From positions 1-32,315 of IMG/VR virus record IMGVR_UViG_3300011116_000575: a stretch of 32,315 nt of DNA. The stretch is one strand, 5' to 3'. This stretch comes from a virus. The notes below the pieces were generated by a model, which saw only the letters and a list, made by a program, of their open reading frames with translations, searched no databases and was not told where the DNA came from. Every line of letters begins with the position of its first letter. Positions within the stretch are counted from its first letter, which is position 1. This document shows positions 6,635 to 32,315 of this stretch, piece after piece. The translations under genes were made by a program, and so were the position numbers.

Positions 6635-6806
6635 ATAAAAGTCTTGCCAACAAAAAATAAATGAGTAATAATAAGTACCAAGCAGATTAGCATTTGCTTA
6701 CAAACACTCTGCAGAGTTATAACAACTAAAGAAAAAACCCACCTATAAGGCAGGTCTTGAGATTAGCATTACCTAAATTATAGCAGGGTTAGATAGGAGT
6801 GGTCAA
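6635..6806. promoter_or_regulatory. Upstream region of the rightward island, with repeats
   Basis: No gene is visible here. It holds a weak rightward promoter candidate (TTGCCA 6644-6649, AATAAT 6667-6672, 17-nt spacer) and a second one, TTGAGA (6757-6762) with TATAGC (6779-6784). It also holds the perfect 12-bp palindrome ACTCTGCAGAGT (6706-6717) and the direct repeat AGATTAGCATT at 6684-6694 and 6760-6770. The spacing of 76 bp (about seven helical turns) would suit two operator sites bound on one DNA face. All of this is pattern only. Confidence 0.4.
6732..6755 (-). terminator. Probable leftward terminator
   Basis: Read leftward, ACCTGCC and GGTGGGT (6755-6749 and 6743-6737) form a 7-bp stem using two G-U wobbles around a TTATA loop. 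It is followed by five T. On the plus strand the wobble positions become mismatches, so the structure favours the leftward transcript. It would stop late transcripts running antisense through the rightward island before they reach the control region. Confidence 0.5.
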
Positions 6807-7100
6807 GTGTTTTCTAGCAAAGAAATTCTAACTAACAATGTAACATTGAACAATGATATAAATTTAATAAAAAACAATGTTAAAACAAACAATGTTAATC
6901 ACAAAAGAGTAGAAGTATTAGCTAATGATTTAGCAGATAAATTAAATTCACCCAATTCTTATAAGCTTTTTTGCAAAGTTGTTTATAAGAACCCAGAGCC
7001 TGTAATACAAAGATGTTTGGGTCTAACTTTAGAAGCAGATAATGTTTTTAATAAGGGTGGTTATTTTATTAGTCTAATTAAAATTTATGGCAACTTATAA
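6807..7100 (+). CDS. Small protein of unknown function (97 aa), GTG start
   Basis: The start is GTG at 6807 with TAGGAG seven bases upstream; no ATG fits better. The first 35 residues are Asn-rich and probably disordered (NNVTLNNDINLIKNNVKTNN). After this, RVEVLANDLADKLNSPNSYK leads into LFCKVVYKNPEPVIQRCLGLTL and a GGYFISLIKIY end. The pattern 'LA..L.D..N...Y......YPE..I...L......KN.G..F..L' resembles a small helical protein I associate with Patescibacteria and their mobile elements, of unknown function, possibly related to replication or regulation. That resemblance is from memory and weak. It is the first gene of the rightward island and so could be a regulator. Confidence 0.6.
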   Translation: MFSSKEILTNNVTLNNDINLIKNNVKTNNVNHKRVEVLANDLADKLNSPNSYKLFCKVVYKNPEPVIQRCLGLTLEADNVFNKGGYFISLIKIYGNL

Positions 7101-7168: not shown

Positions 7169-7366
7169 ATGAAACAAATAAAAAACATATCAACTAAAAC
7201 AATTACTTTCTTTCAAAGGGTAATTAACATATTCTGGATTGCTGCCATAGCAGTATTAGGATTATATCTTATAGATATTATTCAACTTCCAGTGTATATA
7301 GTTAAAGCATATAGTTTTGCTTTGCTTATCACAGCATTAGTACAGCTATATAAGAGCAGTAAATAA
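7169..7366 (+). CDS. Small two-TM membrane protein (65 aa)
   Basis: ATG at 7169 is chosen because an exact extended RBS ends five bases before it. An upstream in-frame ATG at 7109 lies inside the promoter and lacks an SD. The protein has a basic N-terminus (MKQIKNISTK) and two hydrophobic segments, at about residues 18-35 (IFWIAAIAVLGLYLI) and 43-60 (IVKAYSFALLITALV), with a short tail KSSK. It is small enough to be a holin-like or immunity-type membrane protein. It directly precedes a secreted cell-wall enzyme, so a role in export or lysis is possible. A separate holin candidate already accompanies the endolysin at 8409-8591. Confidence 0.65.
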   Translation: MKQIKNISTKTITFFQRVINIFWIAAIAVLGLYLIDIIQLPVYIVKAYSFALLITALVQLYKSSK

Positions 7367-7416: not shown

Positions 7417-7800
7417 TTGGCTACCTTGCCACATACTAACCCAAAAAATGTTCGCACCTCACAAGTAACTGGTCATCAAAACATAGCTAAGCCTGTTTTA
7501 GCAAAGTTTGAGCCACAAATAGCAAGTAGTGCAGAAAATACCCAAAAAGCCGCTACAAGCCCTGAAAATAGCTCAGATGCAAAGATGTTTATCTACTTAA
7601 AAGAAAGTAATAATAATCCATCTGCTATTAACAAAAGTTCAGGAGCTTGCGGTCTGGGTCAGGCTTTGCCCTGCTCAAAGATGCCATGTAGTCTGACTGA
7701 CTATAATTGCCAAGACCAATTTTTTACCGCCTATATGCAAAACAGGTATGGTACTTGGGAAAATGCCAAAGCTTTTTGGCTAAGTCATAACTGGTGGTAA
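7417..7800 (+). CDS. Secreted lysozyme-like (SLT/RPF-type) transglycosylase
   Basis: The C-terminal domain reads MFIYLKESNNNPSAIN (Glu of the 'ES..NP' motif, the presumed catalytic acid), GACGLGQALPCSKMPC (the 'GL.Q' motif with paired cysteines) and YMQNRYGTWENAKAFW. This is the compact transglycosylase/resuscitation-factor-like domain common on secreted proteins of Actinobacteria and Patescibacteria. The frame stays open upstream of the TTG at 7417. Read from ATA at 7378 (seven bases after AAGGAA) it gives RIFIVLASIVLTLATLPHTN, a clear signal peptide. The true start is therefore probably 7378 with a non-canonical codon, or the start codon is mutated. A Ser/Ala/Pro-rich linker (about 30-60) joins the signal and the domain. 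It cleaves peptidoglycan outside the membrane, for entry, lysis or host-surface remodelling. Confidence 0.75.
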   Translation: MATLPHTNPKNVRTSQVTGHQNIAKPVLAKFEPQIASSAENTQKAATSPENSSDAKMFIYLKESNNNPSAINKSSGACGLGQALPCSKMPCSLTDYNCQDQFFTAYMQNRYGTWENAKAFWLSHNWW

Positions 7801-7831
7801 TAAAATACCCCTGAAATTACTCAGGGGTATT
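7801..7831. terminator. Hairpin between convergent genes
   Basis: The perfect 11-bp stem AATACCCCTGA/TCAGGGGTATT (7804-7814 and 7821-7831) has a 6-nt loop. Leftward it runs into TTTTATTA and should terminate the 7817-8029 gene, whose TAA lies in the loop. Rightward the T run is poor, but the stem begins three bases after the transglycosylase stop, so it may serve both. Confidence 0.8.
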
Positions 7832-8029
7832 AAAATAACCAAACAATTCCCTAAGCCTTTGCTCAGAGAGTGCTTGTCTTACAAGAACCAATTCATTGGC
7901 AATCTTAATTCTTGATTGCTGCAACTTGTCTATTCTGAAAGCCAGCAGCCTGTTTCTTTTGTAAAGTCCTGCAAGGTTTCTGTCTATCTTCTCAAGCTTT
8001 TGCTTGAGGTATTCAATCTTATCTTCCAT
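7817..8029 (-). CDS. Small coiled-coil protein (70 aa)
   Basis: ATG at 8029 is preferred because AAGGGGG lies five bases upstream; an ATG at 8050 has no SD. The protein is almost wholly helical with heptad character: MEDKIEYLKQKLEKIDRNLA, then LYKRNRLLAFRIDKLQQSR, ending LFGYFNTPE. It is basic and soluble. Its only apparent transcription comes through the terminator of the 117-nt RNA at 8059-8175, so its expression may depend on read-through of that structure. The SD region GGGGTT repeats the sequence of the terminator's 3' arm. The function is unknown; a nucleic-acid-binding or regulatory role would fit size and charge. Confidence 0.65.
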   Translation of the reverse strand: MEDKIEYLKQKLEKIDRNLAGLYKRNRLLAFRIDKLQQSRIKIANELVLVRQALSEQRLRELFGYFNTPE

Positions 8030-8058: not shown

Positions 8059-8175
8059 AAAAAACCCCAGATGGTGGTATTCCTTTTAATCCATTTTGAG
8101 GAACAGAGTTTTTCTCTGATGAATGCCTACTCTCTCTGGGGTTAGTAGATGTTAGCGAACTAAGCTCTCTACTGT
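8059..8175 (-). ncRNA. Structured small RNA of about 117 nt with own promoter and terminator
   Basis: A perfect consensus promoter ends at 8182, and a terminator stem AACCCCAGA/TCTGGGGTT (8143-8135 and 8071-8063) with six T (8064-8059) closes the transcript. Between them are a 5' hairpin AGTAGA/TCTACT (8173-8168 and 8149-8144) capped by TTAG-TTCG-CTAA, an internal hairpin CAGAG/CTCTG, and TTCCT/AGGAA. A longer pairing GGCATTC/GAATACC with one mismatch lies inside the terminal stem. There is no start codon with an SD. It does not match any riboswitch, ribozyme, tmRNA or 6S family I know. It could be a stand-alone regulator or a leader controlling the 8029 gene. Confidence 0.7.
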
Positions 8176-8181
8176 ATAACC

Positions 8182-8210
8182 ATTATATCAAACAACTTAT
8201 GCTTTGTCAA
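8182..8210 (-). promoter_or_regulatory. Perfect consensus promoter of the 117-nt RNA
   Basis: Leftward TTGACA (8210-8205), exactly 17 nt, then TATAAT (8187-8182). Both hexamers and the spacer match the sigma-70 consensus, which is rare and implies very high constitutive output. Its start would lie near 8175. Confidence 0.9.
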
Positions 8211-8225
8211 TAGTTTTAGTTAATA

Positions 8226-8250
8226 TAAAAAGACCTGATGAGCAGGTCTT
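8226..8250 (-). terminator. Terminator of the late operon
   Basis: AAGACCTG/CAGGTCTT (8250-8243 and 8237-8230) forms a perfect 8-bp stem with a 5-nt loop, followed leftward by TTTTATATT. It comes after the last lysis gene and 16 nt before the -35 of the small-RNA promoter, separating late transcription from the RNA unit. Confidence 0.8.
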
Positions 8251-8264
8251 CTTAAAAGGTTGAA

Positions 8265-9682: not shown

Positions 9683-10240
9683 CTAAGTTTGTGAAACTAA
9701 AAATCCTGTAAAGTAATTATAATTTGCAGTACCTACATCTAATGCAAAAGCAGCATTTCCATAAGCCCTAACAGTTACTGCATTTGTAGCACTTAATTGT
9801 ACTGTGGCTGACCCACTACTACCTAAAATACCAACAGCATTAGATAAAGCTCTGCTACCCCTAGCAGTTTCTGTTCCACTTACAAATAATGAAAACAATA
9901 CTGTTTGCCCGCCAGCAGAAGTAGCTGCTGAACCACTCCAGCTGAAATGATAAAAACCATTTACAGGTACAGTATAAGTTCCTGTAGATGTAGAAAAGTT
10001 ATTATTAGTATCATAAGCTTCTGTATCATAAACAACTGTTGCAAAAGTATTGTTGCCTGTATTAGCTGCAGCAGTTCTTTTTGCATGAAATTTATAAGGA
10101 TTGCTAATAGAAGTAACATTAGTAGCTAAGTTAGCTATACCTGTACCATCATTAAAACTGGCATCATTAGTGCCTAGTATATTCCATTTACTAGCACTTG
10201 GTTGTTCTCCATATATTACTGACCATGATGAATATGCCAT
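9683..10240 (-). CDS. Tail fibre paralogue with C1q-like C-terminal domain
   Basis: Residues 1-30 are the shared attachment module (MAYSSWSVIYGEQPSASKWN). From about 45 on, the protein reads like a C1q/TNF-like jelly roll: FHAKRTAAANTGNNTFATVV, YDTEAYDTNNNFSTSTGTY, TVPVNGFYHFSWSG and YNYFTGFLVSQT. This is the order of conserved aromatic and glycine positions of C1q heads. Such trimeric domains end receptor-binding fibres in several phages. It is the last of three tandem genes with the same N-terminal module and different C-terminal domains. It probably decorates the tail tip and binds the cell surface (inference from family and position). Confidence 0.75.
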   Translation of the reverse strand: MAYSSWSVIYGEQPSASKWNILGTNDASFNDGTGIANLATNVTSISNPYKFHAKRTAAANTGNNTFATVVYDTEAYDTNNNFSTSTGTYTVPVNGFYHFSWSGSAATSAGGQTVLFSLFVSGTETARGSRALSNAVGILGSSGSATVQLSATNAVTVRAYGNAAFALDVGTANYNYFTGFLVSQT

Positions 10241-10242
10241 TG

Positions 10243-11223
10243 TTATGCCCTTTCTATTGTGTAAATGCCTGTTCTTGTACTATCACCATTTATAGTCATA
10301 GTTCCAGTAAAAGCATTATTCCTGAATTTTATATTAAGATAAGTCAAACCGCTATAAGTTCCGCTATTAAAAAATTGTGTAAAAAATATTCCTGTAGGTG
10401 TGCTATTATTTACAGCATAGTGAGGGTCTGCAATTTGTGTAGTGTAAGTATTATAAGCAGTTGCTAAATAAAGCGGAAATACCCAATAATCTGAACTTGC
10501 TGTCCAACCTGAACATACAGCTTCATAAAAAGTAAATTTATAATTTGTATTAGCTTCAGCCTTAAATGCAACATAGTTCATACCATTCCAAGCTACTGAT
10601 GAACCGCCAGGTGAGCCTGTAGTAGCTGAGCCAGCCCTAGTATATGCAGATAATAATCTACCTATTGGGTCCCTATTGCAAATCCTATTACCTAAACTAT
10701 CTATAATTACATTTGAACTAGGATTATTATTCCAGCCTGCCACACCTGAACTTGGTGAATAAATATCTCCTGTAGTTGCTGAAATAATACCTTGATTTAT
10801 TCTATATTTACTAGCAATAGAACCAGCAGCAGTAACTATTATTGCAAGTCTTATGCTATTTGCAGCAAGAGCAGGAGAACTAGCATTATTAGCCACTTCA
10901 GAATAAGTTAAAGTTCCATTACTATCTACATCTACATAAGTATCTTTAGATGCAGTAAAAAGCCTTGATGTTACTGCTGAAACAGAAACCTTTTGTCCAT
11001 TTATATATACAGTACCTGCAGTCATTGAGCCATATCTGGTAGAACCATAGCTATCACCTGTCCAAACACAGCCAGATGCAACATAATTCACAGTAGTATC
11101 ATCTGTAAAACTATCTATATTACCAAGCCTAGTGTTGGCATCTTCATCATTTGTACCTAGTATGTTCCACTTAGCCGCACTAGGTTGCTCTTGATATACT
11201 ACTGACCAACTCTGATAAGCCAT
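10243..11223 (-). CDS. Tail fibre paralogue with unrecognised C-terminal domain
   Basis: The same N-terminal module begins the 326-residue protein (MAYQSWSVVYQEQPSAAKWN, then LGTNDEDANTRLGNIDSFTD). It then has a beta-rich middle with GCVWTGDSYGSTRYGSMTAG and VYINGQKVSVSAV, a typical fibre repeat. The C-terminal part contains ATTGSPGGSSVAWNGMNYVA and a carbohydrate-binding-like stretch (FYEAVCSGWTASSDYWVFPL) that I cannot assign. It is the longest of the three and may be the main host-range determinant. No strong SD is visible before its ATG, which suggests coupling to the upstream fibre gene. Confidence 0.7.
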   Translation of the reverse strand: MAYQSWSVVYQEQPSAAKWNILGTNDEDANTRLGNIDSFTDDTTVNYVASGCVWTGDSYGSTRYGSMTAGTVYINGQKVSVSAVTSRLFTASKDTYVDVDSNGTLTYSEVANNASSPALAANSIRLAIIVTAAGSIASKYRINQGIISATTGDIYSPSSGVAGWNNNPSSNVIIDSLGNRICNRDPIGRLLSAYTRAGSATTGSPGGSSVAWNGMNYVAFKAEANTNYKFTFYEAVCSGWTASSDYWVFPLYLATAYNTYTTQIADPHYAVNNSTPTGIFFTQFFNSGTYSGLTYLNIKFRNNAFTGTMTINGDSTRTGIYTIERA

Positions 11224-11224
11224 A

Positions 11225-11803
11225 TCAGTATTTAATTATATAGTTAAGGGTAATGTAAGGCTGCACATTGTTGTGAGCTGCTCCACCACCTGTATTCTGT
11301 GCAGAGAAACCCCAGAAGTTGGCAGGAGAGTTTTGGTCAGCTCTACCATAGGCAGCACCAAATCCGCCAGCACCCCAACCAATACCAGAGTTAATAGTGT
11401 GAGAGTGAGAGGGCATTTCATTTGATGTAAGGGTATGAGTTTTAGCTCCACCAGTTTTGCCTAAAGCATTAAAGTCTGTATCACTTGAGTTATAACCAAC
11501 AGGTACATTACCTTTTAAGTTAGGTAAGTTAAATGTTGTAGCTCCATCACCATTACCATAGGTTGTACCTATAACTGCAAATAAAGCAGAATAAGTAGTT
11601 CTTGAAACTGCATTACCATTACAAATTAAATAATTGGTAGGTGCAGAACCTGTACCCCAAAGCATAATTCCACCTACTGGTACAACACTTGCTTCTACAG
11701 ATGTAATTCTAGTATTTGCATCTGCATCATTACTTCCTAATTTATTCCATTTTGTAGCTGTTGGTTGTTCCCCAAATACTACTGACCAAGCTTCATAAGC
11801 CAT
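11225..11803 (-). CDS. Tail fibre paralogue with tail-collar domain
   Basis: The N-terminal module (MAYEAWSVVFGEQPTATKWN) is followed at about residue 35 by a clear phage tail-collar/microcystin-dependent-protein domain: VPVGGIMLWGTGSAPTNYLI, CNGNAVSRTTYSALFAVIG, TTYGNGDGATTFNLPNLKG, then EMPSHSHTIN and NNVQPYITLNYIIKY. These 'G....P..yl.c.G', 'FNLP.l.g', 'mP.H.H' and 'QP....ny.i' elements are diagnostic. The collar domain is found on short and long fibres that bind the cell surface. It is the first of the fibre trio and is preceded by GAGGGAAG as SD. Confidence 0.85.
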   Translation of the reverse strand: MAYEAWSVVFGEQPTATKWNKLGSNDADANTRITSVEASVVPVGGIMLWGTGSAPTNYLICNGNAVSRTTYSALFAVIGTTYGNGDGATTFNLPNLKGNVPVGYNSSDTDFNALGKTGGAKTHTLTSNEMPSHSHTINSGIGWGAGGFGAAYGRADQNSPANFWGFSAQNTGGGAAHNNVQPYITLNYIIKY

Positions 11804-12144
11804 TACACTTCCCTCAAAATAAATTTATCTAATATTATATCTTTACCAGTAATCACTATATCTATATTCTGTAAATTTTGTGTGATTTGGTTTATTTCCT
11901 GTGGCTGTGGATTAGATTTATCAGCTATAGTATCTTGTTCTTGCTTAGTCATTAGTGAGTTATTACCGCATAAACACTGCCAGCCCAAGTATCTATCTAA
12001 TCTTTCCCTACCAGAAATAATTGTAAAAGGTTCTGTTTGTTTTTCTTCAAGCCAATCTATTCTTTTGCCTATAGTAGTATCTGCAATCTTAACTTTTCTC
12101 TGACCATTACATTCTTGGCAAATTACTTGATAGTGCTTTTCCAT
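11803..12144 (-). CDS. Small cysteine-knuckle protein (113 aa)
   Basis: The N-terminal CQECNGQ (residues 9-12) and the later CLCG (about 58-60) could form one zinc site. Between them lies GKRIDWLEEKQTEPFTIISG. The C-terminus (NQITQNLQNIDIVITGKDI) is strand-like. It sits between baseplate-type genes and the fibre trio, so it may be a small tail-tip structural or assembly factor. The conserved TAGTTATTGACTA element lies directly upstream, so it may begin a transcript covering fibres and lysis genes. No family is recognised. Confidence 0.6.
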   Translation of the reverse strand: MEKHYQVICQECNGQRKVKIADTTIGKRIDWLEEKQTEPFTIISGRERLDRYLGWQCLCGNNSLMTKQEQDTIADKSNPQPQEINQITQNLQNIDIVITGKDIILDKFILREV

Positions 12145-31956: not shown

Positions 31957-32287
31957 CACCACTCCCTATTGGCTCTATGCCAAACTCTTTTAATAAAGTA
32001 TCTACTGGATTTACTTTTACATCTAATTCTTTCTTATCTCCAAAGGTTTCCCTATCTAATCTTTCTAATAAGAATTCTGGTCTAGCCCTTTTACTTTTAT
32101 CACTAAAAAATTTAGCTTTTGCCATCTCATAGCGGTCTAAAAAATCTGCATCTGTTTTAAGCCAATTATCTAAAGTATTCATAGTTATTCCAGCATTAGC
32201 ACAAGCATATTTTTTAACAGGCAATATTTTCATATAATCTATTACTGCTTGTTTTTTTAATTCTCTTCTTTGTTGTGCATCAGTCAT
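31910..32287 (-). CDS. terS: Terminase small subunit
   Basis: A 125-residue protein with an N-terminal helix-turn-helix-like DNA-binding region (MKILPVKKYACANAGITMNT, LDNWLKTDADFLDRYEMAKA), a basic middle (SKRARPEFLLERLDRETFGD) and an acidic, Ser/Gly-rich C-terminus that could contact TerL. The 'A....GIT..TL..W...D..F...Y..A' pattern is typical of small terminases that recognise the packaging site. It is the first gene of the visible late operon; AAAGGT precedes the ATG. Only 28 nt upstream of it remain in the window, so the operon promoter and the pac/cos region are probably beyond the right edge. Confidence 0.8.
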   Translation of the reverse strand: MTDAQQRRELKKQAVIDYMKILPVKKYACANAGITMNTLDNWLKTDADFLDRYEMAKAKFFSDKSKRARPEFLLERLDRETFGDKKELDVKVNPVDTLLKEFGIEPIGSGDDRKGDEPISGSSES

Positions 32288-32315
32288 ATATTTCTACCTT
32301 TATTTTAACTGTTTT

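Follow-up and report, generated by a model that had tools for sequence, protein, structure and literature searches.

The antisense RNAs c4 of phages P1/P7 and sar of phage P22, both studied experimentally, act at ribosome-binding sites and have antirepressor mRNAs as their targets (PMC12197685). The OOP RNA of lambda is transcribed from the pO promoter and is antisense to cII, and other phage small RNAs have host targets, as in the pairs PreS-dnaN and AgvB-GcvB (PMC12197685). Here we describe a predicted RNA of about 117 nt encoded in a phage record, hereafter the window, meaning the whole 32,315-nucleotide stretch of DNA that was analysed. Like c4 and sar, the RNA is small, structured and phage-encoded, and it is proposed to pair with a phage mRNA where translation starts; unlike their antirepressor targets, the candidate here is a tail-collar gene encoded elsewhere and predicted from sequence. 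OOP is likewise a short phage RNA with its own promoter, but it is antisense to cII, whereas the window RNA does not lie opposite any convincing gene. Like PreS and the other phage small RNAs that act in trans, it is trans-encoded and intergenic, and is presumed to work by base pairing; PreS, however, is Hfq-dependent and has a host-gene target (PMC12197685), whereas the target proposed for the window RNA is a phage gene. We consider it probable that the locus is a stand-alone phage small RNA gene. Our best explanation of the locus as a whole, to which we assign a probability of roughly 0.45, is a free-standing small RNA that acts in trans by pairing.

The window encodes tailed-phage proteins (major capsid, portal, terminase and tail), and nearly all of its genes lie on the minus strand. 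On that strand, the order runs from the early genes (6238 downward), across the record ends, to the terminase and structural genes and then to the lysis genes. Only the small membrane-protein gene, the transglycosylase-like gene and one further ORF occupy the plus strand (Table 1). The record is probably incomplete at its ends (1-375 and 32287-32315), where terminase genes and a glycosyltransferase-like gene lie at opposite ends, because about 5 kb separates these genes in L026, a relative with a 94% identical terminase. At 375-2659 on the minus strand is a block of UDP-glucose/GDP-mannose dehydrogenase-like, polysaccharide-deacetylase-like and glycosyltransferase-like genes, kept in many relatives, with a Pfam family match for the dehydrogenase-like gene only. 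The one genome match, L046, is a contig of a Cloacimonadota MAG and may be a binning error.

Table 1. Features of the window and comparable cassettes in related phages; gene starts are uncurated calls from a simple script.
Feature	Position	Strand	Basis or remark
Window	1-32,315		IMG/VR virus record IMGVR_UViG_3300011116_000575
Further ORF	6807-7100	plus	
Small membrane-protein gene	7169-7366	plus	
Transglycosylase-like gene	7417-7800	plus	
Terminator after coiled-coil gene	7800..7832	minus	fold, z -5.6
69-aa coiled-coil gene	7817..8026	minus	own SD (AAGGGGG); extended -10 (TGTTATACT) just past the RNA's U-tract
Predicted ~117-nt non-coding RNA	8059..8176	minus	fold, no Rfam match, no minus-strand ORF of ≥20 aa
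Terminal stem, 3′ arm and U-tract, UCUGGGGUUUUUU	8059..8071	minus	intrinsic terminator; the stem encloses a loop of ~62 nt
Candidate antisense segment UUCCUCAAAAUGGAUU, RNA nt 74-89	8088..8103	minus	mostly unpaired in predicted fold
Terminal stem, 5′ arm, AACCCCAGA	8135..8143	minus	
5′ hairpin with UUCG tetraloop	8144..8173	minus	MFE and centroid structures
Sigma-70-type promoter TTGACA-17-TATAAT, extended TG	8182..8210	minus	exact-pattern scan and shuffles
Late-operon terminator, upstream of RNA promoter	8216..8256	minus	fold, z -5.7
Small putative holin	8591-8409	minus	lysis gene
CHAP endolysin	9428-8595	minus	lysis gene
Candidate target AAUUUAUUUUGAGGGA, RBS of tail-collar gene 11803-11225	11810..11825	minus	just upstream of AUG
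G007 cassette	L030:5384-5260	minus	T-run 117 nt away, exactly as in the window
G025 cassette	L101:800-918	plus	z -4.6
L119 cassette	L119:7465-7360	minus	

The RNA follows a promoter that the preliminary description had read as a perfect consensus, without naming its strand. An exact-pattern scan confirms the reading and places it on the minus strand, with the -35 hexamer TTGACA at 8210-8205, the -10 hexamer TATAAT at 8187-8182, a spacer of 17 and an extended TG besides. This is the sole exact match in the window; after dinucleotide shuffling, a window would contain TTGACA-N16-18-TATAAT 0.055 times on expectation, and 0.005 times with the TG. In several relatives, an extended promoter of this type also stands ahead of the membrane-protein gene or of its counterpart, which suggests that the host uses such promoters. 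Late terminator, promoter, RNA, coiled-coil gene and second terminator follow one another on the minus strand, and both flanking terminators fold well, in agreement with the location first described, between the late-operon terminator and a small coiled-coil gene.

In lambda, a constitutive-looking promoter followed by a terminator gives rise to a short transcript from the late promoter until antitermination sets in. The same succession of elements here would fit a terminated transcript of which the promoter or the act of transcription matters, and not the RNA. We regard this as improbable, given that the downstream side offers no more than a single small gene and another terminator, while the late operon lies upstream.

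The RNA is predicted to fold with a minimum free energy of -32.6 kcal/mol (z -2.6 to -2.9), and 2 of 200 shuffles fold equally well. Its 5′ hairpin, described earlier as capped by TTCG, is present as AGUAGA...UUAG-UUCG-CUAA...UCUACU. The terminal stem, AACCCCAGA/UCUGGGGUU, comprises nine perfect base pairs and runs into U6, a combination matched in 0.8% of 1000 shuffles (P=0.008); its description as a stem doubling as the terminator holds. Helices inside the loop that the terminal stem closes are weak, poorly defined and unproven. On its own strand, the RNA contains no ORF that reaches 20 aa, in line with the earlier finding of no translatable frame; the two plus-strand ORFs that overlap it (24 and 57 aa) show no sign of being coding. 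Promoter, terminal stem and fold each beat their shuffled controls. A locus with no function, in which the promoter arose by chance and the intergenic fold is of only moderate stability, would be in keeping with the moderate z of the fold and with conservation that could not be shown, but an exact extended promoter and a terminal stem with the shuffle frequencies given above, at one place, make this very improbable.

With its own promoter, its own terminator and no coding capacity, the predicted RNA has features expected of phage-encoded small regulatory RNAs. We would rate it a member of this known functional class, which is not a sequence family. A scan against Rfam 15 at gathering and permissive thresholds gave nothing credible, consistent with the view that it represents no known RNA family; the best permissive match, TEG147 (RF03535), reached 21.4 bits (E=0.095) against a gathering score of 56.1 and was rejected as chance-level. 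A tRNA/tmRNA search found none, BLAST and DNA similarity searches of phage and plasmid collections with the RNA returned nothing, and no viral contig scanned carried the exact pattern of the terminal-stem region. The preliminary description had looked to homologues keeping the stems for support; BLAST gave no homologue in the related phages, and a single-sequence covariance model, run over 0.98 Mb of their DNA, recovered the RNA itself alone; a further 15 full records gave the model no match. Relatives were gathered via terminase, endolysin, transglycosylase and tail proteins, and the longer ones were examined whole; the two nearest by terminase (94%) and the nearest by tail protein (93%) are short contigs that end short of the RNA region. 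The stems and fold are without comparative support, because no homologue was found among the searched relatives and the contigs of the closest kin miss the region. The distinct, terminated non-coding RNA gene with a consensus promoter, as first proposed, is supported; stem-keeping homologues were not found in the DNA searched.

A strong promoter, a stable terminus and the lack of close relatives would also fit a fast-evolving RNA directed at the host, which would pair with a host mRNA or imitate either a host RNA or a ligand bound by an RNA-binding protein of the host. Other small RNAs of phages do have targets in the host (PMC12197685). The Rfam scan, however, gave no match pointing to imitation of a known RNA, and we judge a host-directed role unlikely.

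A second terminated RNA, of about 40 nt, lies behind TTGACC-18-TATAAT (TG) at 6732-6806 of the window, on the minus strand. It is kept in the relative L119 (9222-9302 minus), with 76% identity over 113 nt (E=1e-12). In a hand alignment of the two terminator stems, four pairs changed on both sides still pair (C-G/A-U, G-U/C-G, C-G/G-C and A-U/U-A), so this predicted hairpin, unlike that of the 117-nt RNA, has comparative support. Terminated RNAs of 42-45 nt and similar build occur at L110:832-873 plus and L138:12795-12839 plus, with no sequence match to that of the window. A short motif appears twice, inside the short RNA and just downstream, in the window (6690-6775 minus), in L119 (9180-9268) and in L110 (834 and 928), taking the forms AATGCTAATCT, ACGCAAATCT and ACGATAGAAAGTCCA, respectively. 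A palindrome after the terminator, AACTCTGCAGAGTGTTT, is kept between the window and L119. The recurring motif or palindrome is a possible operator or antitermination site.

To return to the 117-nt RNA, intergenic DNA of the relatives was scanned for a strong promoter followed by a terminator. This yielded three further cassettes, each with a strong promoter, an RNA of 97-117 nt and a terminator (G007, G025 and L119; Table 1). Their build and general location are common with the window, and the adjoining genes differ; the G025 cassette lies on a contig end, where placement relative to lysis genes cannot be read. A common sequence family with the window RNA was rejected, since alignment gave no credible conservation, and we treat the cassettes as analogues only. 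No such cassette was found in the scans of L044, L110, L122, L123 and L125, in which the transglycosylase or lysis region is covered. As the cassettes share no sequence, and as each phage has other genes as candidate targets, they may be unrelated.

These cassettes bear on whether the RNA could instead serve the 69-aa coiled-coil gene as a structured leader of the attenuator or riboswitch-like kind, with a conditional terminator and expression of the gene by read-through. Promoter, RNA, terminator, SD and ATG do follow in sequence on one strand, and in prefixes of 90-100 nt the CCAG arm is drawn into a competing fold; this fold is far weaker, however, at -15.1 kcal/mol against the value given above for the complete terminated fold. 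The coiled-coil gene could have a promoter of its own in the extended -10 that directly follows the U-tract. The hypothesis is further weakened because coiled-coil genes in the relatives L002, L030 and L119, equated with that of the window by size and composition only, have no such RNA ahead of them, and the comparable cassettes adjoin other genes. Cassettes of the same build beside different genes favour a free-standing small RNA over a leader, and we consider the leader unlikely. The coiled-coil protein itself had no match in Pfam or PHROG. Among the roles listed in the preliminary description, that of attenuator is possible but is weakened by an association between RNA and gene that is not kept in relatives; that of a packaging RNA found no supporting feature. 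The best-supported role of those considered is now a base-pairing regulator, which was absent by that name from the earlier list.

For the free-standing small RNA, pairing was scored by matching every RNA, without gaps, against the complement of the phage genome that encodes it. Ungapped matching was adopted after RNAduplex energies, which allow long internal loops, had not separated targets from shuffles in any phage (P 0.11-0.38), and this change of method weakens the P values that follow. Nucleotides 74-89 of the RNA form 16 contiguous pairs, 3 of them G-U, with the ribosome-binding site of the gene starting at 11803, which encodes a Collar domain (PF07484, E=4e-23). Once the cost of opening both partners is deducted, the net energy is -11.2 kcal/mol, and no other trans match on either strand of the record scores as high. 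Its P value is 0.003 by shuffling (300 RNA shuffles, all ribosome-binding sites) and 0.022 by genome position for the single best match; overall, the matches of the window RNA are not enriched at ribosome-binding sites (1 of 56, P=0.72). In an offset control, the score of 31.4 was reached in about half of the offsets, which we read as the same site re-matched, because the genome has a single 31.4 match; the control was flawed in that the site was not excluded and windows could re-match it, and it was replaced by the genome-wide positional test.

Among the analogues, the L119 RNA matches three or four ribosome-binding sites, the top three unreached in 300 shuffles. Three of its ten top matches are ribosome-binding sites (P=0.003 by position), and it has an 11-nt perfect match at that of the adjacent membrane-protein gene; by these matches, it is a better-supported antisense candidate than the window RNA. 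The G007 RNA has one such match, with P=0.01 by shuffling but without significance in the positional test, and the G025 RNA has none by either test. Taken on its own, the proposition that the window RNA acts by base pairing stands at slightly less than even odds, and the collar-gene ribosome-binding site is a doubtful, if specific, candidate for its target. The next two fibre genes follow the collar gene with almost no gap and may for this reason be co-regulated. All three are tandem fibre-like genes (9683-11803 minus) with a common N-terminus of about 30 aa, MAYxxWSVvygEQPsAxKWNxLGtND, and with C-terminal parts that differ (Collar/Gp10, none found and C1q).

In the model of a free-standing small RNA, host RNA polymerase would start at the strong promoter of the RNA, which directly follows the late-operon terminator, and the transcript would end at the terminator made by its own terminal stem. 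A mostly unpaired segment containing UUCCUC would then cover the Shine-Dalgarno region of the collar gene, lowering its translation and perhaps also that of the two closely following fibre genes. The promoter, the terminal stem, the lack of coding capacity and the isolated place between two terminators are what the computation shows; trans action by base pairing is the part of this model that we infer.

It is conceivable, though we think it quite unlikely, that the lineage has a small-RNA slot near the boundary of lysis and early genes, holding fast-changing cassettes for RNAs of 100-120 nt that pair with ribosome-binding sites of the phage's own genes, such that new sequences and targets would keep replacing old ones at a constant position and in a constant build. 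The targets would be the tail-collar gene in the window, and the membrane-protein/transglycosylase operon and others in L119. To our knowledge, small RNAs of phages from uncultured hosts have been little explored, and a structural-gene target in the RNA's own phage is unusual; no phage small RNA with a tail-fibre gene as its target came up in a literature search. Should the pairing be real, the RNA would adjust post-transcriptionally how much tail-fibre protein is made, and the cassettes of its relatives would show how quickly such regulators turn over.
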